35,080 nucleotides of DNA from NCBI GenBank assembly GCA_005778115.1, contig SXKJ01000383.1, positions 1 through 35,080 of the forward strand, read 5' to 3'. Position 1 is the first letter of the stretch; every line of letters starts with the position of its first letter. The position numbers and the translations under genes were made by a program. The stretch is from Planctomyces sp. Lineage in GTDB: Bacteria > Planctomycetota > Planctomycetia > Planctomycetales > Planctomycetaceae. Below, piece after piece: positions 12,205 to 33,897 of this stretch. Below the pieces are notes generated by a model. That model searched no databases. It was not told the origin of the DNA and saw nothing but the letters and a program-made list of their open reading frames with translations.

Positions 12205-13971
12205 ATGATGCGGATGTGGTGCGGAAGTCGAATGGCTCGCTGGGTGGCAGCCAGTCTGGCGGTCGCCATCAGCGCCTCGGTCGCAATGACCGCCGAGGAA
12301 CCAGGATCCAAAGATGCAAAGTCCAAGGCAATCGCCAAGGATGCGAAGTCCGGCACCAAAAAGGCTGCAGACGAAGCGAAGCCGGCCGGCAAAAAGCGAG
12401 AAGAGTTCACGACCGGTTCGTCCGACGTGCTCATCTCCTACATCAACGAACAAATCCGCCAAGGCTGGGCCGACAATGAAGTTGAGCCTTCTGAAGTCGC
12501 TGGTGACGGCGAGTGGATTCGCCGCGTTTACCTCGACATCGTGGGTCACGTTCCACCGATGGAAGACATCGAGAAATTCCTCGCTGACAAAGATAAGGCG
12601 AAGCGGTCGAAGCTGATCGATAAGTTGCTGGACGATCCCGCCTATGTCCGCCATTGGACGACCGTGTGGGCGAACCTGACGATCGGCCAAACAGCTCCGC
12701 GAGACGTCAGCCGCAAAGGTATGGAGAAATTTCTCCGTGAAGCGTTCACGAGAAACCGCCCGTGGAATGAAGTGGTGGTTGACATCGTCGCCGCTGAGGG
12801 CAACTACGAGGAAAACGGCGCGGTCAATTACATCCTGGCTCAAATGGTGATGCCGGATGATGGAGTGCAAGCGACCGCTAAGACGACTCGGCTGTTTATG
12901 GGCATGCAGGTTCAATGCACCCAGTGCCACAATCATCCGTTCAATGATTGGCAGCAGCGCCAATTCTGGGAGTTCAATAATTTCTTCCGCCAGTTGACCA
13001 AGCGGACGGTTCAGAAGTACGACGCGAAGGCCGGTCGGAATGTTACGGATTATGTTGAGTTGAATCGTCGCGATAATGTGGATGATCACGTCACCTACGA
13101 ACGTCGCAATGGTCTGATTGAAGCTGCTTATCCCCGCTATTTTGGGCAAGACGCTGAAGTCGCCAAGAAAGACAAAGACGGCTGGGATGTGAACCGCCGC
13201 GAAGTGCTGGCCAAGTTGATGACGGAGGGGGAAAAGCCGCTCGTCTCGCTGGCGATGGTCAATCGGATGTGGAGTCAATTCTTCGGCTATGGTTTCACGA
13301 AACCGGTCGATGACTTGGGGCCGCACAATCCTGCTTCGCATCCGGACCTGCTCGATCGCCTAGGGGCCGAATTCGTGAAGTCGCGCTACGATGTAAAGCA
13401 ACTTGTTCGCTGGATCTGTAACTCCGAGGCGTACAACCTCACGAGTCAAGCCACTAAGGCCAACGAAGAGAAAGACAATCCGGCCGCCGGCACGACGGCT
13501 CTCTTTAGTCACGTTTATTTGAAGTCGATGTCGGCCGAACAGCTTTACGATTCACTGATCGTCGCCACGAATGCCCACAAGTCCGGTCGATCCAGTTGGG
13601 AGCAAGCCGAAGACAAGAAGCGAGTCTGGCTGCGGCAGTTTGTCACGACCTTTGGCACCGACGAAGGGGACGAGTCGACAACCTTCAATGGTTCGATCCC
13701 CCAAGCTTTGATGATGATGAACGGAGAATTGGTCAAAGACGCGATCAGTGCTCAGAAGGGGAGTTTCCTTAACGCGATCCTGTCCGAGACGCCGCAGGAT
13801 AAGGACCGCATTCGCCGTCTGTATTTGACGACGCTGGGTCGTAACCCGAACGCCAAAGAACAGCAAATGGCGGCGGGAGTTGTGCGTGTTCCCAACGATC
13901 AAAAGCTGGCCGCGTACCAAGACATGTTCTGGGCTCTGTTGAACTCCAACGAGTTCATCTTCATTCACTGA
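12205..13971 (+). CDS. DUF1549/DUF1553 (PSCyt2-PSD1) exported protein
   Basis: A 588-residue protein. The ATG at 12205 is preceded by AAGGGG. The N-terminus is a signal peptide (hydrophobic [18 protein letters not shown], residues 13-30), followed by a Lys/Ala-rich spacer to about residue 65. A DUF1549 domain follows ([15 protein letters not shown] near 107, DDPAYVRHW near 146), with one cytochrome-like CTQCH motif at C238, C241, H242 inside HNHPFNDW. The C-terminal half is DUF1553 ([40 protein letters not shown] at the end). These planctomycete proteins are exported; the CxxCH suggests a heme c or metal site, but the activity is unproven. It is followed by two DUF1501 genes, the usual partner, and has a close relative fused to an anti-sigma-like region at 17459. 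Confidence 0.92.
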
Positions 13972-14036: not shown

Positions 14037-15335
14037 ATGAACCTCGTTCCCAATGGTATGACTCGCCGCCACTTTATGAGTCACATGGCCGCCACGGCGG
14101 CGACGATCCCCGCCATTCAGTTCATGCAGCATCTGCAAGTTCACGCGGAGACGGTGAAGAAAAACCAAAAGGCCTGCATCCTGATGTGGATGGGCGGAGG
14201 ACCTCCGACCATCGACATCTGGGATTTGAAGCCGGGCAGCAAGAATGGCGGCGAATTCAAGCCGATTACAGCGGCAGGCACGCAAATCAGCGAGCACATG
14301 CCGAAGACGGCAGCTCAGTTCGATGTGCTCAACACCGTCCGTTCGATGAGCACTCGCGAAGCCGATCACGGCCGCGGCCGTTACTTCATGCACACCGCTT
14401 ATGTGCCGAACCCGACCGTCGTTCATCCGACATTCGGCTCGGTGGTCAGCCACGAGCTTGGCTCGAAACGCAAAGAGTTGGAAATTCCGTCGTTCGTCTC
14501 GATTGGTGGTGACCCAGGTAGCCCAGGCTTCTTGGGAATGGGGAACTCGGCGTTCGTCGTGAATACCCAGGGGCGTATCCAGAACGCGGATACCGACGGC
14601 ATGGACCCGAATCGGTTTAAGAACCGACTCAAGATGCTCGGCACGATCGAAGACAGCTTCATCGCGTCGAAACGCGGTGAGGCTCCGCAGGCTCACAAGG
14701 ACGTTTACAAGAAGGCCATCGATTTGATGACCTCGAAGCAAATGGAAGCGTTCCGCATCGACAAGGAAGATCCGAAGACCCTCGACCGTTACACCAATGC
14801 TGGCGCTCCTGCCGGAATGATGGGGCGAGCCAATAACGATTTCGGCCGTGGCTTGCTGATGGCTCGCCGGTTGGTCGAAGCGGGTGTGCCGTTCGTTGAA
14901 GTCGGCATGGGCGGTTGGGACTTGCACGCGAACGTTTTCAATACGCTCAAGGACCGCAACCTGCCGGCGATGGACACTGCGATTTCCGCGTTGGTCACCG
15001 ACCTCAAAGAACGCAGCATGATTAAGGACGTGGTTGTCGTGTGGATGGGCGAGTTCGGTCGCACGCCACGCATCAACCAAGATGTTGGACGCGATCACTG
15101 GGCGGCAAGCTGGTCCGTGATGATCGGTGGCGGCAATCTCAAGGGTGGCCTGGGTGTTGGTGAAACCGACGCGGACGGCCTCACCTGCACGAGCAAGCCG
15201 TACCTCCCCGGCAACATCTGGGCGACGGCTTGCCACGCTCTTGGTATTCCAACGACGACGGTTCACACCTCCAAGCGTGGCCGTCCGATGAAGATCGCCA
15301 ACGGCGAAGCTCCGATTGCCGAATTGATCGGCTAA
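14037..15335 (+). CDS. DUF1501 protein, tandem copy 1
   Basis: A 432-residue DUF1501 protein with an N-terminal Tat-like leader: [20 protein letters not shown], twin Arg at residues 10-11. Core motifs are [20 protein letters not shown] (48-67), the [14 protein letters not shown] segment, and near the C-terminus [11 protein letters not shown] followed by GRDHW. DUF1501 belongs to the alkaline-phosphatase-like superfamily, so the Asp/His/Glu motifs are likely metal ligands. The substrate is unknown. The AAAGGAA ribosome site lies just before the ATG at 14037. It follows the DUF1549/DUF1553 gene by 65 bases, the usual order for the family pair, and is followed by a strong terminator and a near-identical second copy. 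It is likely exported folded through Tat, in keeping with bound metal. Confidence 0.9.
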
Positions 15336-15363
15336 TCATGGCGGCGTCCGCTGGAACGGATTG

Positions 15364-15393
15364 AAAACGGGGGCGGCATCGCCCCCGTTTTTT
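15364..15393 (+). terminator. Rho-independent terminator between the two DUF1501 copies
   Basis: AAAACGGGGGC (15364-15374) pairs with GCCCCCGTTTT, a perfect 11-base GC-rich stem with a 6-base loop, and a run of six T ends at 15393. This is the clearest intrinsic terminator in the window. It separates the first DUF1501 gene from its duplicate, which therefore probably depends on its own promoter or on read-through. Confidence 0.88.
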
Positions 15394-15460
15394 ATCGCAC
15401 AACTTCGATTCGACGTTGATGGTTCAGTAACCGCTCGACCCTTTGCAGAGGAGTATTGCC

Positions 15461-16771
15461 ATGAACCTTATTCCCGCCGGGATGACTCGTCGCCATTTCC
15501 TGAGTCACATGGCTGCCAGTGCGGCAACGATCCCCGCTGTGCAATTCATGCAGCATTTGCAAGTTCATGCGGAGACGGTCAAGAAGAACCAAAAGGCTTG
15601 CATCCTGATGTGGATGGGCGGAGGTCCGCCGACCATCGACCTCTGGGACTTAAAACCGGGCAGCAAGAATGGCGGTGAGTTCAAGCCCATCAGCACCAAA
15701 GGGGACTGCCAGATCACCGAGCATCTGCCGAAGACTGCGGCTCAGTTCGATGTGCTCAATGTCGTGCGATCGATGAGCACTCGTGAAGCCGATCACGGTC
15801 GCGGTCGCTACTTCATGCACTCGGCCTATGTGCCCAACCCAACGGTGGTCCATCCCACGTTCGGTTCGGTGGTCAGTCATGAGCTCGGCACCAAGCGGAA
15901 GGATTTGGAAATTCCTTCGTTCGTGTCGATCGGTGGTGATCCAGGCAGCCCAGGATTCTTGGGGATGTCGAATGCCGCGTTCGTGGTCAACACGCAGGGG
16001 CAGATTCGTAACGCCGATATGGGAGACATCGATCAACGCCGACTGGCTTCGCGGCTCGCGATGCTGGGAACCATCGAAGACAACTTCATCGCATCCAATC
16101 GGGGTGATGCTCCTCAGGCTCATAAAGACGTCTACAAAAAGGCCACTGACTTGATGACGTCCAAGCAAATGACAGCGTTTCGCGTGGACAAGGAAGATGC
16201 CAAGACGATCGAGAAATACACGGGCACTGGCACTCCCACCGGTGGAATGAGAGGAATGCGCGGCAACAACGATTTTGGCCGCGGGTTGCTGATGGCTCGG
16301 CGTTTGGTAGAGGCGGGCGTGCCTTTCATCGAAGTTGGATTCGGCCAGTCCTGGGACTTGCACAATGATGTGTTCAACCGGCTGAAGACGGCCCATCTGC
16401 CGATGATGGATACCGCGATTTCCGCGCTGGTCAGCGATCTGAAAGAACGCAGCATGATCAACGACGTGGTGTTGGTCTGGATGGGCGAATTCGGACGCAC
16501 GCCGCGCATCAATCAAAATGTCGGCCGCGATCACTGGGCGGCAAGCTGGTCGGTGATGATCGGAGGTGGTGGACTCAAGGGAGGCCAGGCGGTCGGGGCG
16601 ACTGACGCAGACGGCCTCACTTGCACCACTAAGCCGTATCTTCCGGGGAACATTTGGGCGACGGCTTGTCACGCTCTCGGTATTCCGACGACGACGGTTC
16701 ACACTTCCAAGCGCGGCCGTCCGATGAAGATTGCCAACGGCGAGGCTCCGATTGCCGAACTGATTGCGTAG
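15461..16771 (+). CDS. DUF1501 protein, tandem copy 2
   Basis: A 436-residue paralogue of the preceding gene. The ATG at 15461 has GAGGAG at 15448-15453; an in-frame TTG at 15443 overlaps that site and is rejected. Over the first 77 residues I count six differences from copy 1, all conservative except one, and the C-terminal 30 residues differ only at the last one. The Tat-like [20 protein letters not shown] leader and the [16 protein letters not shown] motifs are kept. Copy 2 has small insertions (a DC in the KGDCQITEH segment, and a Gly/Arg/Met-rich [10 protein letters not shown] segment near 255). Both copies look functional, so this is a duplication being kept rather than a decaying copy. 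It is followed after 38 bases by the ECF sigma gene on the same strand. Confidence 0.9.
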
Positions 16772-16809: not shown

Positions 16810-17382
16810 ATGTCCGAGCCGCAATTCAACGAACCCGTCGATGATTCCGACTCCTTGGAGCAGGTGCCCAACGCCGAGTTCGTTCAGCTTTTCACGAAAT
16901 CACAACGAAGGTTGTTCCTGTTCATTCTGTCTCAAGTCAACAACGTGACCGATGCCGAAGAGATTTTGCAGGACACGAACGTCGTCATCTGGAGCAAGTT
17001 TCGTCAGTTTCAACTCGGCACAAGTTTTTTCGCCTGGTCCGGAAAGATTGCCACTTACGAAATCCTCAAGTACCGGGAGAAGAAACGAGCCGGCCGTCTG
17101 CTCTTAAGTGACGAGTTCATCTCGCGCGTCGCCGCCGATGCGATCGAGATGAGCGATGAACTCGAAAAACGCCGCGAGGCGTTGTCCGAGTGCTTGCGTC
17201 TCCTGAAAGCCGACGACCGCGAATTGATTCAAGCTCGCTACGCTTCCGGCGAGAACGGTTTGAAAGTCGCCGAACGGCTGGGCCGACCGACCAACTCGGT
17301 CTATCAGTCGATTGGCCGTATCCGCAAAGTGTTATTCGATTGCGTCACGCGGCGACTGACTGCGACCGCAAGGGCGACATAA
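16810..17382 (+). CDS. ECF RNA polymerase sigma factor, Rhodopirellula/Verrucomicrobium type
   Basis: A 190-residue protein from the ATG at 16810; longer in-frame starts would overlap the DUF1501 gene. The sigma-70 region 2 spans about residues 21-90 (RLFLFILSQVNN, DAEEILQDTNVVIWSKF, AWSGKIATYEILKY), and region 4 about 125-180 (ALSECLRLLKADDRELIQAR, then the helix-turn-helix VAERLGRPTNSVYQSIGRIR). The DAEEILQDTNVVIWSKF signature is that of the planctomycete/verrucomicrobial ECF group. It directs RNA polymerase to a small regulon, normally held in check by a membrane anti-sigma factor. The next gene, 76 bases downstream, begins with an anti-sigma-like region. The gene follows the second DUF1501 gene by 38 bases, so the surface-protein genes and the sigma gene may share a transcript. 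Confidence 0.93.
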   Translation: MSEPQFNEPVDDSDSLEQVPNAEFVQLFTKSQRRLFLFILSQVNNVTDAEEILQDTNVVIWSKFRQFQLGTSFFAWSGKIATYEILKYREKKRAGRLLLSDEFISRVAADAIEMSDELEKRREALSECLRLLKADDRELIQARYASGENGLKVAERLGRPTNSVYQSIGRIRKVLFDCVTRRLTATARAT

Positions 17383-17390
17383 ACCTTAGA

Positions 17391-17409
17391 CCGGTCACAC
17401 CATGACCGG
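17391..17409. other. Stem-loop between the ECF sigma gene and the fusion gene
   Basis: CCGGTCA (17391-17397) pairs with TGACCGG (17403-17409) around a 5-base loop. It is not followed by T residues. It could be an operator or an RNA element in the 76-base gap between sigma and its putative regulator. Confidence 0.4.
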
Positions 17410-17458
17410 AACGAACCTTCGGGCCACTTAGTGACCCGGCTACTTTGAACCGCAAATC

Positions 17459-19612
17459 ATGACTCCGCGAGACCTCGCCAAATTGCCGCCAGCCCTCTTC
17501 GAGTGGCTCGAAGCGTTGTGTGAAGAACGGCTCACTCCGGCTGATGCACAACGTCTCGAACAGCTCGTGCTGCGTGACGCGATGGCTCGCCAAGCCTACC
17601 TCGCGTATCTCGACCTGCATGGCACACTGCACTGGAACACCGCCTTCGGTGACGACGGAGCCAACTTCGAGCCGGCGATCACACCGCGGCTCGCCTCCGA
17701 GTCGCCTTCGGATACACCTGCCAAGCGCGGTTATCGTAGTTTGCTGGTCTTAGCCGCTTCAGTAGCTGTGATCGCCGTATTCTCGTTCTCCATCGGGCGC
17801 TGGTTCGTGCCGAACAGCGACTCGACTCCGGTGGCCGGAAACGACGAGCCAAAGACGATTCCGTCACACGCGACGAATAATAATGACCGAGTCGTTGCTC
17901 AAAATCCCAAAGAGGAATTGCCGCCGAGTAAGCCGCTGGTACTGACCGATCGATCGAAGTCCGAAAACATTGCGGCTGCTGCTTCATCGGAAGGCAATGA
18001 TCCGAAAATGCTAAATCAAGCAGACAAAGTGGCCGCGAACGATTCGCGTCCGCAGCGGCCTGCTGGTAGCGTGGTGACGAGGACTGCGGGATCGGCGCAA
18101 GGCATTGTGGCCGACATCAATGAGCATCTTGCCGCAGGCTGGAAGTTGCAGGGGGTTGAACCGTCGCCGCTGGCCGACGATGCCGAGTGGTTGCGACGGA
18201 TCTATCTCGACGTGGTCGGCCACATCCCACCGGTTGAGGTCGCGGAGAAGTTTCTAACCGGCCGTGACGTGCGCAAGCGAGAGAAACTGCTCGACGCGCT
18301 GCTTGATGACCCGGCTTACGTCCGGAATTGGACGGTCGTGTGGACCAACCTTTTGATTGGTCGATCCGATTCACGAGACGTGAATCGCCCGGCGTTGCAG
18401 AAATTTCTGCGAGAGAGCTTCGCCAAAAATCGCCCGTGGAACGAGATGGTTGCCGAGTTCATCTCAGCCGAGGGTTCGTTCGATCAAAACGGCGCGACGA
18501 ATTTTCTGTTGGCTCATTTGAACAACCAGGCGGTGCCGGCCACCGCGATCACCGCGAAGATTTTCCTGGGCCAGCAAATCGGTTGCACGCAGTGCCACGA
18601 CCACCCGTTCAACGATTGGAAGCAGGATGCCTTCTGGTCGTTCAACAGTTTCTTCCAGCAGACCAAAGTGGCTCGCGTGGATCGCAGCGACAGCGCTGGT
18701 AAGATGAAGTCGCAAGCCGCCGCGTTAGAGACGAAACACGTTGGCGGCCCGACGCACTTCGAGAATCGCCGTGGAGTGGCATTGGTTGCGTACCCGAAGT
18801 TTGCAGGCACTGCGATCAATGAAGATGCTGAAACGAACCGCCGTAATGAACTCGCGAAGTTGATGACCGCCGGCGACAAGCCACAGGTCGCTGAGGCGTT
18901 TGTGAATCGGATGTGGGATCACTTCTTCGGCTGCGGGTTCACTCGCCCAGTCGATGATATGGGGCCGCACAATCCGCCGAGCCATCCGGAACTGCTTGAC
19001 CATCTTGCCCGCGAATTCGTCGCCAGCGGTTACGACTGCAAACAACTGATTCGCTGGGTTTGTTTGAGCGACGCCTATCAACGCACCAGCCGCTTCGGGA
19101 AAACGAATGAGCAAGACAATCCAGAGACTGGCGCTTCGCCGCTCTTCAGTCGCGTCTACATCAAAGGGATGACTGCCGAGCAGTTGTACGATTCGCTGCT
19201 GCTCGCGACCGGTGCCGACAACACGCCGTTGGCCACCGGTGACCACGATCGTCGCCGCCATGAGTGGTTGCAGCAGTTCGTCCACGCTTTCCAAACGGAT
19301 GAGAACGACGAGTCCATCAACTTCGAGAGCAGCATCACGCAAGCGCTCTTGATGATGAACAGCGACCTGACGCAGCACGCGCTGAGCATGGATCGCGGCA
19401 CGTTCCTCGAAAAACTGACGACCAGCCGCGACACCGAAGCCGAGAAGATTAAGCGGCTGTGCCTCGCCACGCTGACTCGGTATCCGACGCCGAAAGAGCA
19501 GCAAGCCCTGCGGCGGCTCGTCCACGAAGGAACCGGCTCGCGGACGAATTCCGGCTGGCAAGACGCCTTGTGGGCGTACTTGAATTCCGGCGAGTTCGTG
19601 CTGGTACATTGA
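17459..19612 (+). CDS. Anti-sigma-like N-terminus fused through a membrane segment to a DUF1549/DUF1553 (PSCyt2-PSD1) protein
   Basis: A 717-residue protein. Residues 1-60 (LFEWLEALCEERLTPADAQR, LEQLVLRDAMARQAYLAYLD, LHGTLHW) match the cytoplasmic segment typical of planctomycete FecR-type anti-sigma proteins encoded after ECF genes. One membrane helix lies at about 93-113 (RSLLVLAASVAVIAVFSFSI), then a Ser/Asn/Lys-rich spacer to about 205. From about residue 220 the sequence is a full DUF1549/DUF1553 protein: WLRRIYLDVVGHIPP, DDPAYVRNW, CTQCH at C376, C379, H380 in HDHPFNDW, VNRMWDHFFGCGF, VDDMGPHNPPSHPELLD, and NSGEFVLVH at the end. This part is closely similar to the separate protein at 12205. 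The expected topology is N-terminus inside and heme-like domain outside. It likely controls the adjacent sigma factor; what it senses is unknown. No strong ribosome site precedes the ATG. Confidence 0.85.
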   Translation: MTPRDLAKLPPALFEWLEALCEERLTPADAQRLEQLVLRDAMARQAYLAYLDLHGTLHWNTAFGDDGANFEPAITPRLASESPSDTPAKRGYRSLLVLAASVAVIAVFSFSIGRWFVPNSDSTPVAGNDEPKTIPSHATNNNDRVVAQNPKEELPPSKPLVLTDRSKSENIAAAASSEGNDPKMLNQADKVAANDSRPQRPAGSVVTRTAGSAQGIVADINEHLAAGWKLQGVEPSPLADDAEWLRRIYLDVVGHIPPVEVAEKFLTGRDVRKREKLLDALLDDPAYVRNWTVVWTNLLIGRSDSRDVNRPALQKFLRESFAKNRPWNEMVAEFISAEGSFDQNGATNFLLAHLNNQAVPATAITAKIFLGQQIGCTQCHDHPFNDWKQDAFWSFNSFFQQTKVARVDRSDSAGKMKSQAAALETKHVGGPTHFENRRGVALVAYPKFAGTAINEDAETNRRNELAKLMTAGDKPQVAEAFVNRMWDHFFGCGFTRPVDDMGPHNPPSHPELLDHLAREFVASGYDCKQLIRWVCLSDAYQRTSRFGKTNEQDNPETGASPLFSRVYIKGMTAEQLYDSLLLATGADNTPLATGDHDRRRHEWLQQFVHAFQTDENDESINFESSITQALLMMNSDLTQHALSMDRGTFLEKLTTSRDTEAEKIKRLCLATLTRYPTPKEQQALRRLVHEGTGSRTNSGWQDALWAYLNSGEFVLVH

Positions 19613-29526: not shown

Positions 29527-29564
29527 TTCCGACGCGCGGAACAATGCCCCGCAGAAGCGAATCA

Positions 29565-29692
29565 TGGACTGCGGCAGCCCTGCTGCTGCTTTCCGTCCGA
29601 CAGCCTGCTGTCGGACGAGTTGTGTATGGTACTGCCACATCCCCTCAGCAGCGGTCTGCTGAGGGGATGTGGCAGCAGGCTGCCGCAGTCCA
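29565..29692. repeat. Composite palindrome with an outer stem and two inner hairpins
   Basis: An outer perfect 15-base pair, TGGACTGCGGCAGCC (29565-29579) and GGCTGCCGCAGTCCA (29678-29692), encloses two perfect hairpins: GTCCGACAG/CTGTCGGAC (29595-29616, loop CCTG) and a 20-base stem CTGCCACATCCCCTCAGCAG paired with its complement (29632-29675, loop CGGT). Together they could fold as a three-way junction. It lies between the serine hydrolase stop at 29526 and the next ATG at 29784. Confidence 0.85.
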
Positions 29693-29783
29693 AGCGTTCG
29701 CCGCTCGACGCAAATTCCAGGGACGATTACCATCAAATCGTCACCTTTTAGCGACAGAGACGCATTGGTCGGAGGAACGAGCA

Positions 29784-32363
29784 ATGAAATATCTGACGAG
29801 CAAGCTCGTGTTTGTAGTCGCTTGGTTTGCGACGGCCACTGCTGTGATCGCTGACTCACCTGAGAAGCAGGCCGACAAGGCGGCATTCGTGGGCCAGCCG
29901 GTTTCTCTAGTCGTTCAGCCCGAAACGATTCGGTTGGCTGGTCCGCGCGACATGCGACAGGTTCTGGTGACTGGACGATACAGCGATGGCAGCGAGCGCG
30001 ACTTGACGCACTTCTGCGAGCTGCGGGTGGAAGCGCCCGACCTCGTGAAGATCAGTCACGGCGGATTGTTGCGTCCTCAAAAGGCCGGCGAGACGGCATT
30101 GGTGATTCAGGCGGGAGAACGGACGGCGCGCGTGCCGATCGTAGTCACTGACTTCGAAAAACCTCAGCCGGTCAGCTTCCGGCATGAGTTCATCGCTGCG
30201 CTCAATGTCGCGGGTTGCAATGCGGGGGCGTGTCACGGCATTCCCAGTGGGCGGGGGGGATTCAAGCTGAGTTTGCGCGGCTACGATCCGGCAGCGGACT
30301 TCATCGAGTTATCGAACTCGGCTCAGGGCCGTCGCGTCAATCGGTTCGATGCGGAGGCGAGCTTGATCCTGAAGAAAGGGATGGGGCAGATCCCTCATGC
30401 CGGCGGACCGCGGTTGTTGTCGGTCAATTCGGTTCCGCAAGAGATCGTTCGCGCCTGGTTGGCCGAGGGTGTGCGTGACGACTCGGCCAATCTGCCGGCC
30501 ATGACCAAGATCGAAGTTCTCCCCGGCATCCGAGTGCAAACCGCGCCGGCTCGATGGCAACAACTGGCGGTGCTGGCCCACTTCACCGACGGCAGCGTGC
30601 GCGACGTGACCCGATTGACGGCGTTCAGCAGCAGCGATGACAGTATTGCTGCCGTTGATGCCAATGGGTTGGTGGAGATGAAGCAAGTGGGTGAGGCAGC
30701 CATCTTGTGCCGTTATCTCGGCGTCATCGAGTGTGCTCGACTCACATACCTCGAACCGCAGCCGAGCTTCGTCTGGCCCAATCCCCCCGCGAACAACGAC
30801 GTGGATCGGCATGTCTTTGCGAAGCTCAAGGCGCTCAACTTGCTCCCGGCGGATCTTTGCAGCGACGAAGAGTTCGTGCGGCGGGCGTACCTCGATCTCT
30901 GCGCCATCTTGCCGACGCCGGACGAGTGTCGTGTCTTCTTGGCTGATCCATCGCCCGACAAGCGAGCGAAGTTGATCGATCAGTTGCTGGAGCGACCTGA
31001 GTTCGCGGACTACCTCGCGTACAAGTGGCTCGACGTCTTACGTGCCAACCGCTTGACCATTCAGATCAAGGGGAGCCATGCGTATCGGCAGTGGCTGCGC
31101 AGTCACGTCGAACGGAGCACTCCGTGGAACGAAGTGGTCTCGGAGCTTCTGACGGCCAGCGGAAGCACGTTTGCCAATCCTCCCGCGAATTATTTCCGCG
31201 GGCCGTATGACAACGGAGCACCGGTCGTTCAGAACGCACAGAACCTGGCCGAGAGCACGGCTCAACTTTTCTTCGGCATCCGACTGCAATGCGCCAAGTG
31301 CCACAACCATCCGTTCGAGCGTTGGACTCAGGACGACTACTATCACATGGCGGCGTGGTTCGCGCGGCTCAAGGCGGAGCCGGATGGCGAGAATCCGGGC
31401 AGCCCAAAACAGCCGTATCCTTGGCAGTTGCGAGAGAACGCGCTCGTGATCTATTCGGACGCCAGCGGCGAGATCACTCATCCGCAGTCCGGCAAGGCGA
31501 TGCCTCCCAAAGTGCTGGGTCTGCCCGCGCCGGTCATTTCGCCAGACGCGGACCGTCGCGCGACATTGGCCAAGCTGGTCACTTCGCCAGAGAACCCATT
31601 CTTCGCGCGAGCGACCGTCAATCGCATTTGGTTCCACCTGCTTGGCCGGGGGATCGTCGATCCGCCCGACGACTTCCGTGATTCGAACCCGTCAGCCAAT
31701 GACGCGCTGCTGGATGCTCTGGCGAGCCAGTTCATCAAGAGTAACTATGACGTGAAGCACGTTGTTCGTCTGATCGCCAACTCGCGAACGTATCAACTCA
31801 GCTCTCACGCCAAAGCCGGCAATCAAGAGGACATCAAGTACTTTTCAAACGCGCTCGTCCGGCGAAAGCGACTGACGGCGGAATTGCTGCTCGACGCGAT
31901 CTGCACCGCGACGGGAGAACCGGAAGTGTTCACCGGAATGCCGGAAGGGACGCGAGCCGTGCAGCTTTCCGATGGCCAAGTCATCTACACCGGCGGCCGC
32001 TACGCCTCCTGGGACCGCCACCCGTTTTTGAAGGCGTTAGGCCAACCGGCTCGTGAGGCGGTCTGCGAGTGTGAACGAGAAAGCGACCTCAATGTGGCCC
32101 GTGCGCTCGAGATGAAAAACGGCTCGTTCGTGCTCGGCAAACTCCGCGCTCCCAATAACCGTCTCGGCCGCCTGTTGGCAAAAGGCTTATCCGACGCCGA
32201 CATCGTGGCCGAGTTATTCCTGGCCACGTTGTCTCGCCCGCCCCGCCCCGATGAATCCCGCTCAGCCCTCGACCATGTGACCAAGTCCGACAACAAACGC
32301 ACCGCCTGGGAAGACATCCAATGGGCGCTTCTAAATACAAACGAATTTCTCTTTCGACATTGA
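29784..32363 (+). CDS. Large exported protein: Ig-like (BIG2) repeats with DUF1549 and DUF1553 domains
   Basis: An 859-residue protein from the ATG at 29784, with GGAGGA at 29771-29776. A longer in-frame start would run through the composite palindrome. The signal peptide spans residues 7-23 (KLVFVVAWFATATAVIA). Bacterial Ig-like segments follow (GRYSDGSERDLTHFCE near 64, and AHFTDGSVRDVTRLTAFSSS further on). A CNAGACHG motif (C145, C150, H151; CX4CH) lies between them. The DUF1549 domain follows (VRRAYLDLCAILPTPDE), with CAKCH at C503, C506, H507 in HNHPFERW, and then DUF1553 (TVNRIWFHLLGRGIVDPPDD, NSRTYQLS, LLNTNEFLFRH). This is the long, Ig-containing form of the family seen at 12205 and 17459. 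It should act outside the cytoplasm. The DUF1501 gene that follows is its usual partner. Confidence 0.92.
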   Translation: MKYLTSKLVFVVAWFATATAVIADSPEKQADKAAFVGQPVSLVVQPETIRLAGPRDMRQVLVTGRYSDGSERDLTHFCELRVEAPDLVKISHGGLLRPQKAGETALVIQAGERTARVPIVVTDFEKPQPVSFRHEFIAALNVAGCNAGACHGIPSGRGGFKLSLRGYDPAADFIELSNSAQGRRVNRFDAEASLILKKGMGQIPHAGGPRLLSVNSVPQEIVRAWLAEGVRDDSANLPAMTKIEVLPGIRVQTAPARWQQLAVLAHFTDGSVRDVTRLTAFSSSDDSIAAVDANGLVEMKQVGEAAILCRYLGVIECARLTYLEPQPSFVWPNPPANNDVDRHVFAKLKALNLLPADLCSDEEFVRRAYLDLCAILPTPDECRVFLADPSPDKRAKLIDQLLERPEFADYLAYKWLDVLRANRLTIQIKGSHAYRQWLRSHVERSTPWNEVVSELLTASGSTFANPPANYFRGPYDNGAPVVQNAQNLAESTAQLFFGIRLQCAKCHNHPFERWTQDDYYHMAAWFARLKAEPDGENPGSPKQPYPWQLRENALVIYSDASGEITHPQSGKAMPPKVLGLPAPVISPDADRRATLAKLVTSPENPFFARATVNRIWFHLLGRGIVDPPDDFRDSNPSANDALLDALASQFIKSNYDVKHVVRLIANSRTYQLSSHAKAGNQEDIKYFSNALVRRKRLTAELLLDAICTATGEPEVFTGMPEGTRAVQLSDGQVIYTGGRYASWDRHPFLKALGQPAREAVCECERESDLNVARALEMKNGSFVLGKLRAPNNRLGRLLAKGLSDADIVAELFLATLSRPPRPDESRSALDHVTKSDNKRTAWEDIQWALLNTNEFLFRH

Positions 32364-32377
32364 GGTTTTTGGATGAC

Positions 32378-32432
32378 AGTGCAAAGTGCAAAGTGAAAAA
32401 TTGTGTGTTCCGAACACTTTGCACTTTGCACT
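32378..32432. repeat. Inverted repeat of AGTGCAA units in an operon gap
   Basis: AGTGCAAAGTGCAAAGTG (32378-32395) pairs perfectly over 18 bases with CACTTTGCACTTTGCACT (32415-32432), around a 19-base loop. A further partial unit, TTCACTTTGCACT, follows at about 32434-32446. It lies between the DUF1549/DUF1553 gene and the DUF1501 gene. No T run follows, so it is unlikely to be an intrinsic terminator. Confidence 0.8.
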
Positions 32433-32487
32433 CTTCACTTTGCACTGGCTACTTTGATTGCGGCGTTGCCGCATCAGGAGATTTGCC

Positions 32488-33897
32488 ATGATCACTCTGC
32501 TTGGTAGCCGAAGACGTCTGTGTGACGGCCTGACCCGCCGCGAAACTCTGAAGGCCGGAGCGCTCTCCCTTCTCGGCGGAGCCTTCAACCTACCGAGCCT
32601 GCTCGCGCTCGAAGAGAGCAACCGAGTGCGCCCCGCCAAGGCCAAGAGCGTCATTCTGCTCTATCTGCTGGGCGGCGCGCCGACGCAGGACATGTACGAT
32701 TTGAAACCGGACGCGCCGGAGAAAATCCGAGGCGAGTTCAAGCCCATCGACACGAATGTGCCGGGCATCCAGATCAGCGAATTGCTGCCGCTGTCGGCTC
32801 AGTGGATGCACAAGACGGCGATCGTCCGCTCGGTCAACCACAAGGCCGGCTGCCACAATCCGCTGCCGAGCTACACCGGTCACGAGATCGCCTTGGCCGA
32901 CATCACTAGCACCAAGGACACATATCCTCCCAGCATGGGCTCGGTTTGCGAATACCTTCGCCCGGCAACGAAGGATTTGCCCGATTACATCTACCTCCCC
33001 GATTACGCCGGAGCGGGCAATGCGGGCGGCACTGTGCGATATCCGGGGCCGTATGCCGGCTTCCTCGGCAAGCGTTATGACCCGCTGTTCTCGGAATTCG
33101 ACAAGAAGAAGGATCGCACCGTCGGAAAAATGAAGATGCTCGACGGCGAGCCGTTCCTTTCGCGGAACACTCGCTTGGCCGATGGCATTACGCTCGACGC
33201 TTTGCAGGCGCGCGAGGGGTTGCTGCAACAGTTCAATCGAAACCAGAAGCGGGCCGAAGCGAAAGGCGCGCTCGACGACGTGGACCGCATTCAGCAACGA
33301 GCGTTCGGCCTGTTGACCTCCACCACGCTCAAGAGCGCTTTCGATTTGAGCACCGCCGACCCAAAACTGCGCGACCGCTACGACCGCACGCTGTTCGGTT
33401 CCAGTGCGCTCATCGCCCGTCGATTGGTCGAAGCGGGAGTCAGATTTGTGAATGTCACCTGGGATTTCCCTGGTGACAATTCATGGGACACTCATGCCGC
33501 GAACTTCGGCTGGCTCCGCGGCGCTCTACCGTCGCTGGATCTCACCTACAGCGCGCTGCTGGATGATCTGAACTCGCGCGGTCTGTTGGACGAAACGTTG
33601 GTCGTCGTGATGAGCGACATGGGCCGGACACCGCAGGTCAACAACAACGCCGGCCGCGACCACTGGAGTTTCGGATACAGCGTCCTCTTTGCCGGTGCCG
33701 GCATTCGAGGCGGCACCATTCATGGTGCCACCGACGCTCATGCTGCCTATGTGAAATCGCATCCGGTCAGCACCAGCGACATCTGCGCGACAATCTATCA
33801 TCTCTTGGGAATCGATCCCGACATGAAGGTCTACGACAACGACCGCCCGGTCGCCGTGGCGCACGGAGGCCGGCCGATCGAGGAGATTCTTGCGTAG
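32488..33897 (+). CDS. DUF1501 protein (partner of the large DUF1549/DUF1553 protein)
   Basis: A 469-residue protein from the ATG at 32488 with AGGAG at 32476-32480. The leader holds a twin-arginine motif, LTRRETLKAGALSLLGGAF, for Tat export. Core motifs are SVILLYLLGGAPTQDMYDLK near residue 55, [25 protein letters not shown], and near the C-terminus MSDMGRTPQVNNNAGRDHW. These place it in DUF1501 of the alkaline-phosphatase-like superfamily, with likely metal ligands in the GRDHW region. It is clearly divergent from the two tandem copies at 14037 and 15461, so it belongs to another subfamily. It follows its DUF1549/DUF1553 partner by 124 bases. The substrate is unknown. Confidence 0.92.
   Translation: MITLLGSRRRLCDGLTRRETLKAGALSLLGGAFNLPSLLALEESNRVRPAKAKSVILLYLLGGAPTQDMYDLKPDAPEKIRGEFKPIDTNVPGIQISELLPLSAQWMHKTAIVRSVNHKAGCHNPLPSYTGHEIALADITSTKDTYPPSMGSVCEYLRPATKDLPDYIYLPDYAGAGNAGGTVRYPGPYAGFLGKRYDPLFSEFDKKKDRTVGKMKMLDGEPFLSRNTRLADGITLDALQAREGLLQQFNRNQKRAEAKGALDDVDRIQQRAFGLLTSTTLKSAFDLSTADPKLRDRYDRTLFGSSALIARRLVEAGVRFVNVTWDFPGDNSWDTHAANFGWLRGALPSLDLTYSALLDDLNSRGLLDETLVVVMSDMGRTPQVNNNAGRDHWSFGYSVLFAGAGIRGGTIHGATDAHAAYVKSHPVSTSDICATIYHLLGIDPDMKVYDNDRPVAVAHGGRPIEEILA

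Follow-up and report, generated by a model that had tools for sequence, protein, structure and literature searches.

A conserved ECF sigma factor gene of Planctomyces sp. and its adjoining gene for a putative membrane anti-sigma factor with a DUF1549/DUF1553 ectodomain

The DNA analyzed here, called the window below, is a stretch of 35,080 nucleotides from Planctomyces sp. (assembly GCA_005778115.1, contig SXKJ01000383.1, positions 1 to 35,080). In it, the gene for an extracytoplasmic function (ECF) sigma factor is followed by a gene for a 717-residue protein that joins an anti-sigma-type N-terminal domain, one membrane helix, and a complete DUF1549/DUF1553 (PSCyt2/PSD1) module with the motif CTQCH. 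The anatomy of the locus, the homology of the N-terminal domain, the recurrence of the two genes, and the invariance of CxxCH establish them as a conserved pair of sigma/anti-sigma type in which the ectodomain is unusual. We think it likely that the 717-residue protein is the membrane anti-sigma factor of the preceding sigma factor, that its cytochrome-like ectodomain was copied from a free-standing protein of the same cluster, and that the pair works by the mechanism set out below.

The sigma factor scores 147.9 bits against TIGR02989 (curated cut-off, 124.55) and is a member of that group; against Pfam it reaches 27 bits for sigma70_r2 (cut-off, 24) and 24.7 for sigma70_r4_2, slightly below the cut-off of 25.7. 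The protein encoded next passes the gathering scores of both PF07583 and PF07587, which makes it a PSCyt2/PSD1 protein, and gave no match to the FecR domain PF04773 at an E value of ≤0.01. An AlphaFold2 model of the whole protein (24-row alignment; mean predicted local distance difference test [pLDDT], 69.9) has N-terminal helices at residues 11-21, 27-39, and 41-54, a membrane-length helix, and a module that is largely confident from residue 213 and low around CTQCH. Profiles, hydropathy, and model together confirm the layout given in a preliminary description of this DNA: ECF sigma gene, 76-base gap, anti-sigma-like N-terminus, helix, and full module with CTQCH. By hydropathy, the helix is present in 23 of 25 such fusions of the window's family and missing from L052 and from the piece at L050 (L numbers denote fetched loci and G numbers denote genomes).

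The N-terminal domain belongs with those of other sigma partners. We fetched 40 of the 43 best matches among paralogous sigma genes, omitting three with an in-frame stop; one locus, L070, runs off its contig, which left 39. A hidden Markov model (HMM) was built from the pre-membrane parts of 28 of the 39 downstream proteins. None of these is a fusion of the window type, and L078 among them carries a different DUF1549/DUF1553 lineage. Searched against the 1656 open reading frames (ORFs) of all loci then fetched, the HMM matched the window fusion at an E value of 5.9e-17 and the weakest family fusion (L047) at 3.7e-7. The 11 paralogous loci unused in building, where the ORF picked lay in a wrong frame (six) or none was picked (five), all matched in another frame (1.1e-17 to 1.9e-5), and the best ORF that we did not trace to a sigma gene reached 1.2e-4. 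In 20 family loci added later, the post-sigma protein matched in every case (E ≤ 3e-12). Profile-profile alignment with the paralogous partners by hhalign gave 99.25% (E = 4.9e-20) over residues 8-65. The segment that had been said to look anti-sigma-like is, over residues ~8-65, the N-terminal domain of paralogous sigma partners. Conservation is strong at residues 17-62 and not in the stretch after them. A simple leader or anchor is ruled out by this conservation, by the homology to other sigma partners, and by the absence of the domain from the free-standing twin.

The preliminary description also held that this slot usually contains a FecR or LamG protein, and the Pfam count agrees: among 38 proteins of the paralogous slot (the partly masked L086 was excluded), FecR occurs in 33, LamG in 16, and the PSCyt2/PSD1 pair in one, L078. 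The L078 partner (G024) is a 1279-residue protein in which PSCyt1, PSCyt2, LamG, and PSD1 follow the same N-terminal domain and helix. A 1537-residue ORF at L071 (G035) combines an anti-sigma-type N-terminal domain (E = 8.5e-12) with alpha-2-macroglobulin domains.

AlphaFold2 models the 125-residue N-terminus with three confident helices (pLDDT, ~93). Foldseek returned 18 PDB matches for this model, none of them significant, with RsiW or MucA complexes at ranks 1, 2, 3, 5, 6, and 12; chains of 8z6g superimpose at 1.6-1.7 Å over 47-48 columns. On our own reading of the chain lengths, the matched chains in these complexes are the anti-sigma ones. The likeness of the predicted fold to RsiW and MucA is suggestive only. 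Two results count against an anti-sigma assignment: the best fold match has an E value of 1.8, and Pfam gave no match at E ≤ 1, to an anti-sigma family or any other, within residues 1-125. The NCBIfam 'antisigma' model matched weakly in 3 of 13 orthologues (best E, 0.0047) and not in the window's own protein, and a sequence search of the domain against the PDB gave no match. Across 33 loci, sigma distances correlate with those of the N-terminal domain (partial r, 0.45, with DUF1549, DUF1501, and ectodomain controlled; 0 of 2000 permutations) and hardly with those of the free-standing protein (partial r, 0.105; p = 0.16). The sigma-ectodomain correlation (partial r, 0.42) again weakens the case, since it means that linkage may contribute to the correlation with the N-terminal domain.

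The pair recurs throughout most of the family. We searched 40 genomes, the source genome among them, and the window's family accounts for 25. Of these, 23 have a sigma orthologue (E ≤ 2.3e-48), the window's own included, and the fusion is the next gene in all 23, as read from search coordinates and, for 13 fetched loci, from tblastn and translation. A survey of 198 genomes drawn from the class yielded 47 genomes with a sigma match at a threshold of E ≤ 1e-45, all from the window's family. From new family genomes of this survey we chose 20 extra loci, mostly one per genus, and each has the sigma gene followed by the fusion. This brings the family total to 43 of 43 sigma orthologues checked, one of which (L050, G020) has an in-frame stop in its fusion. 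Both DUF1549 and DUF1501 genes lie upstream in 18 of the 20 loci and a DUF1501 gene in 19; L131 has neither, and L136 has just DUF1501 in the stretch. In a set of 14 loci from named records, which partly overlaps the 40 genomes, the four genes stand in this order at 12, and L030 and L031 have just module relatives. The pattern is not universal: the pair is missing from G008, where a contig end cuts the cluster, and from G019, which keeps DUF1549-DUF1501, and at least four family genomes of the class survey had no sigma match. Because the pair recurs across genomes (23 of the 25 family genomes, then all 20 extra loci), the assembly error that the preliminary description had allowed for is excluded, as is a chance fusion.

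A second family, f5, has the same layout with different parts. A different ECF sigma factor occurs in 33 of 41 f5 genomes; the three tested score 83-86 bits against TIGR02989, under the cut-off. We sampled the loci of 22 of the 33 sigma-bearing genomes (L055, L056, and L102-L121). In all 22, a CxxCH ORF matching the module profile adjoins the sigma gene; the match is weak (26-48 bits) in L102, L103, L114, and L121. A hydropathy helix is present in 21 of the 22 proteins and absent from L121. We call the fusions of the window's family type-1 sensors (F1), those of f5 type-2 sensors (F2), and their free-standing twins A1 and A2. Classes were set by hand for nine ORFs (five type 1 and four type 2) and for the four weak matches. 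The type-2 N-terminus ('DPLLDALLEELLGG..PPDLS') is unrelated to that of type 1 (hhalign, 0.4-2%); from its gene position, it may bind the neighboring sigma factor. The preliminary description had asked whether such fusions always sit beside this ECF group. The pairing recurs at 43 of 43 family orthologues, and 'always' fails: a second ECF group does likewise elsewhere with an unrelated N-terminus.

In the set compared, every type-1 sensor (25 of 25), every type-2 sensor (22 of 22), and every free-standing protein (42 of 42) has the CxxCH motif, as does each module ORF listed for the 20 later loci. Among 89 modules, six columns are invariant (C376, C379, H380, N483, W486, and F563), and three of them are the C, C, and H of the motif. 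This invariance is strong selection on CxxCH. By comparison, the free-standing proteins of the two families share 79 conserved columns, of which type-1 sensors keep 45 and type-2 sensors keep 9. Covalent haem is the natural reading of such a motif, and the genome has two matches to the cytochrome c assembly family PF01578. If this reading is true, an anti-sigma factor with covalently attached haem would represent a new kind of sensor; to our knowledge none has been reported so far, and we recognized none in a literature search of partial coverage.

Several observations tell against haem. We looked for a conserved Met or His as second axial ligand and found none, which would allow a ligand-binding haem. 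The pLDDT is low at the CxxCH region, and the haem reading therefore rests on the motif. No c-type cytochrome was matched significantly by fold or by PDB sequence, the model being weak at the motif. For the module as a whole, the PDB gave no significant match by fold, and by sequence six non-significant ones, five to NagJ and one to a reaction-centre chain. The latter, 1eys_C (E = 0.52, non-significant), spans the CxxCH stretch, and the motif alone could produce it. The strongest competing explanation accepts an anti-sigma factor, takes CxxCH as structural or metal-binding, and has the module sense something unrelated to haem through contact with another protein, such as that of the DUF1501 gene. 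It draws on the lack of a significant cytochrome match and of a conserved second ligand and on the DUF1501 gene upstream in 19 of the 20 further loci. We judge it less probable than a haem-based sensor, since neither the two cysteines nor the histidine of the motif vary, not even in sequences that have lost the xHPF after it, which fits covalent haem better than a Cys-only site, and the genome encodes the cytochrome c assembly family. As a separate observation, the fusion module (window positions 18095-19609) resembled, in repeated but weak fold matches of the full model, the linker domain of phycobilisomes (pfam00427; E, ~1).

The preliminary description had called the module closely similar to the free-standing protein at 12205 and suggested that the sensor may be a copy of it. 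The similarity is confirmed: the two are 46% identical over 572 columns, and the second-closest relative encoded in this genome reaches 34%. We then placed 75 modules in a quick maximum-likelihood tree, omitting 7 near-identical genus loci, half of the second-family sensors (11 of 22), and 16 of the 26 other modules. The 18 rows of type-1 sensors (support, 97) stand beside the 18 rows of type-1 free-standing proteins (97), jointly supported at 95, and type-2 sensors (11 rows; 99) stand beside the f5 free-standing proteins (16 rows; 98), jointly at 99. Forcing all sensors into one clade costs 63 log units (approximately unbiased [AU] test, p = 0.021). Path lengths are greater for the sensor than for its twin in 16 of 16 type-1 and 5 of 5 type-2 loci with both in the tree. 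These sister clades favor a copy of the cluster's own protein and two separate origins of the sensors, short of proof.

When the module is split, the DUF1553-half tree groups F1 with A1 and F2 with A2. The DUF1549-half tree keeps F2 with A2 and not F1 with A1; F1 joins outgroup rows, and the copy relationship is lost there for the window's family. This result speaks against a copy, as does the consideration that gene conversion could imitate the copy topology. Sensor and twin might instead have split once, before the two families parted, with conversion within clusters mimicking two origins; the shared gene order and the DUF1549-half tree would fit. We consider such a single split unlikely, since the AU test rejects a single sensor clade, the N-termini are unrelated between families (0.4% probability), the sigma groups differ, and F1 and F2 are united in neither half tree. 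Taking two origins as favored, we tentatively put forward a broader principle of self-copying, possible and some way from probable. At least twice in planctomycetes, a DUF1549-DUF1501 cluster would have had its secreted haem c protein duplicated onto an anti-sigma leash of unrelated origin, and the copy would have evolved fast with the haem motif kept. Through such an anti-sigma factor with covalent haem, the cell would follow how its own surface machinery stands in redox state, ligand, or partner.

For sigma binding, topology, haem, signal, release, and targets we infer the following scheme. The three-helix N-terminal domain would hold the sigma factor at the inner face of the membrane. One helix would span the membrane, as its position and the KRGYR before it indicate, and a flexible linker of ~100 residues would carry the DUF1549/DUF1553 module outside. 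The module would be a duplicate of the cluster's free-standing, probably secreted protein and would probably bear haem c through CxxCH. The signal would most likely be an altered redox state or haem ligand, or else binding of the usual partner of the twin (the DUF1501 protein or a common substrate). Such a signal would release the sigma factor by conformational change or proteolysis, and free sigma would then transcribe the DUF1549-DUF1501 pair and its own gene from a putative promoter. With a dedicated sigma/anti-sigma pair that has a copied ectodomain, one could measure which genes the sigma factor controls, what signal induces it, and how much haem a minimal module contains.

Rather than an inhibitor, the DUF1549/DUF1553 protein could be a mere target of the neighboring ECF sigma factor, a membrane-anchored surface protein. 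A 2009 study (PMC2754498) words the relation in this way, in the part available to us, for Rhodopirellula baltica: RB10049, an ECF sigma factor, and the nearby RB10051, a PSC2 and PSD1 gene, are proposed as regulator and target, citing Studholme 2004. The pairing of ECF and PSC2-PSD1 genes was therefore already in print in 2009, citing 2004. The two systems, compared by description alone, are alike in having an ECF sigma gene near a PSC2 and PSD1 gene; an anti-sigma domain and a membrane helix, both present in the window fusion, are unmentioned in the part of that text available. At least 12 of the 39 paralogous loci also have a separate DUF1549/DUF1553 ORF after the sigma gene and a FecR-type partner (L064, L067, L079, L083, L084, L086, L089, L092, L093, L095, L097, and L101), a lower bound because the fetched stretches end near there. 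Such sigma systems thus seem often tied to DUF1549/DUF1553 proteins, and these genes are plausible targets. For the window protein itself we find a target role very improbable, since it bears the domain of the slot's putative anti-sigma proteins and, at the loci examined, the sigma and fusion genes lie too close together to fit another anti-sigma gene between them. We give equally little credence to the idea that the N-terminal domain aids sigma as a pro-sigma chaperone freed by proteolysis, a role that some FecR-type N-terminal domains do play, even with the relatives of the domain being mostly FecR-type (33 of 38).

Set against known systems, a membrane anti-sigma factor of this build has several partial counterparts. 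The TIGR02989 ECF sigma factors with FecR or LamG partners of planctomycetes and verrucomicrobia share the sigma group, the N-terminal domain, the single helix, and the slot; the window fusion has DUF1549/DUF1553 with CxxCH as its outer part, and no FecR domain. The L078 partner likewise follows a paralogous sigma factor, has the same N-terminal domain, and is fused to a planctomycete cytochrome module; it differs in module lineage and in its additional PSCyt1 and LamG domains. RsiV is a lysozyme-binding anti-sigma receptor whose ectodomain acts as the receptor. Both it and the window fusion are of anti-sigma type with a receptor-like ectodomain, putatively so for the fusion; we know of no DUF1549/DUF1553 domain in RsiV. 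The class I anti-sigma factors RsiW, MucA, and RseA have a cytoplasmic helical sigma-binding domain, according to the part of PMC7406223 available. The window fusion, too, has a predicted cytoplasmic helical domain, the likeness coming from the model and not from sequence; by our own comparison it lacks the HxxxCxxC zinc motif and has a far larger ectodomain. In the parts available, PMC5615132 describes PSCyt genes as frequent and of unknown function, and PMC8103513 treats planctomycete ECF groups. In a partial text search, outside whose scope the main ECF classification literature lay, we recognized no description of a DUF1549/DUF1553 anti-sigma factor.

The surroundings of the pair (Table 1) bear on its transcription. 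Relatives have a hairpin with a T run between DUF1501 and sigma genes in 16 of 23 distinct loci (9 of 12 and 8 of 12 in two sets sharing one locus; our own rule, with no shuffled control), which suggests two adjacent transcription units. A single DUF1501 copy was seen in the stretches of relatives examined, against two tandem copies in the window cluster (14037-16771; 84% identical to each other). Since the extra copy lies between hairpin and sigma gene, it may be co-transcribed with sigma in the window. The sigma-to-fusion gap (17383-17458) contains two palindromes. Among the nine genus loci L018-L026, the stop and start of the two genes overlap by 4 bases in seven, and L019 and L020 are gapped. 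That the gap is a repeat element was rejected: a 24-base stretch with a palindrome is single in the genome, with 3 mismatches allowed. Of 14 upstream regions, a set in which one genus supplies three, 5-6 have pairs of the GAAC/GGTA type, and shuffled sequences reach at most 4. These 14 regions gave no clear shared promoter, a point against self-directed transcription by this sigma factor. The leader-like N-terminus of the protein at 12205 suggests secretion; this leader scores under the hydropathy threshold that we applied to sensor and free-standing ORFs.

Table 1. Features of the window around the sigma/fusion gene pair
Feature	Position	Strand	Basis
Free-standing DUF1549/DUF1553 protein, 588 residues, putative parent copy	12205..13971	+	PF07583 and PF07587; identity to fusion module; sister clade
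DUF1501 protein, first copy, counterpart of the relatives' single copy	14037..15335	+	PF07394, 311 bits; 98% identical to L018-L020 copy
Terminator-like G+C hairpin with T run after first DUF1501 gene	15366..15394	+	Own rule and sequence; missed by generic scan
DUF1501 protein, second copy, between hairpin and sigma gene	15443..16771	+	PF07394, 298 bits
ECF sigma factor, TIGR02989 group, 190 residues	16810..17382	+	Starts at ATG 16810; profile scores
Complete fusion protein, 717 residues, DUF1549/DUF1553 ectodomain, putative membrane anti-sigma factor	17459..19612	+	Profiles, model, tree, recurrence
Anti-sigma-type domain, predicted cytoplasmic, residues 1-62	17459..17644	+	HMM, hhalign, three-helix AlphaFold2 model
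Single membrane helix, residues ~95-113, KRGYR just before	17741..17797	+	Hydropathy 95-113; AlphaFold2 helix 90-112
Disordered linker, residues 114-211	17798..18091	+	AlphaFold2 pLDDT <50 at 110-211; poor conservation outside genus
DUF1549 (PSCyt2), residues 220-403	18116..18667	+	PF07583, 148.8 bits
CTQCH, haem c-type signature, residues 376-380	18584..18598	+	Motif
DUF1553 (PSD1), residues 461-687	18839..19519	+	PF07587, 146 bits

Farther downstream, positions 29544-33897 of the window encode one more DUF1549/DUF1553 protein, the third and a divergent one, with a DUF1501 gene after it.

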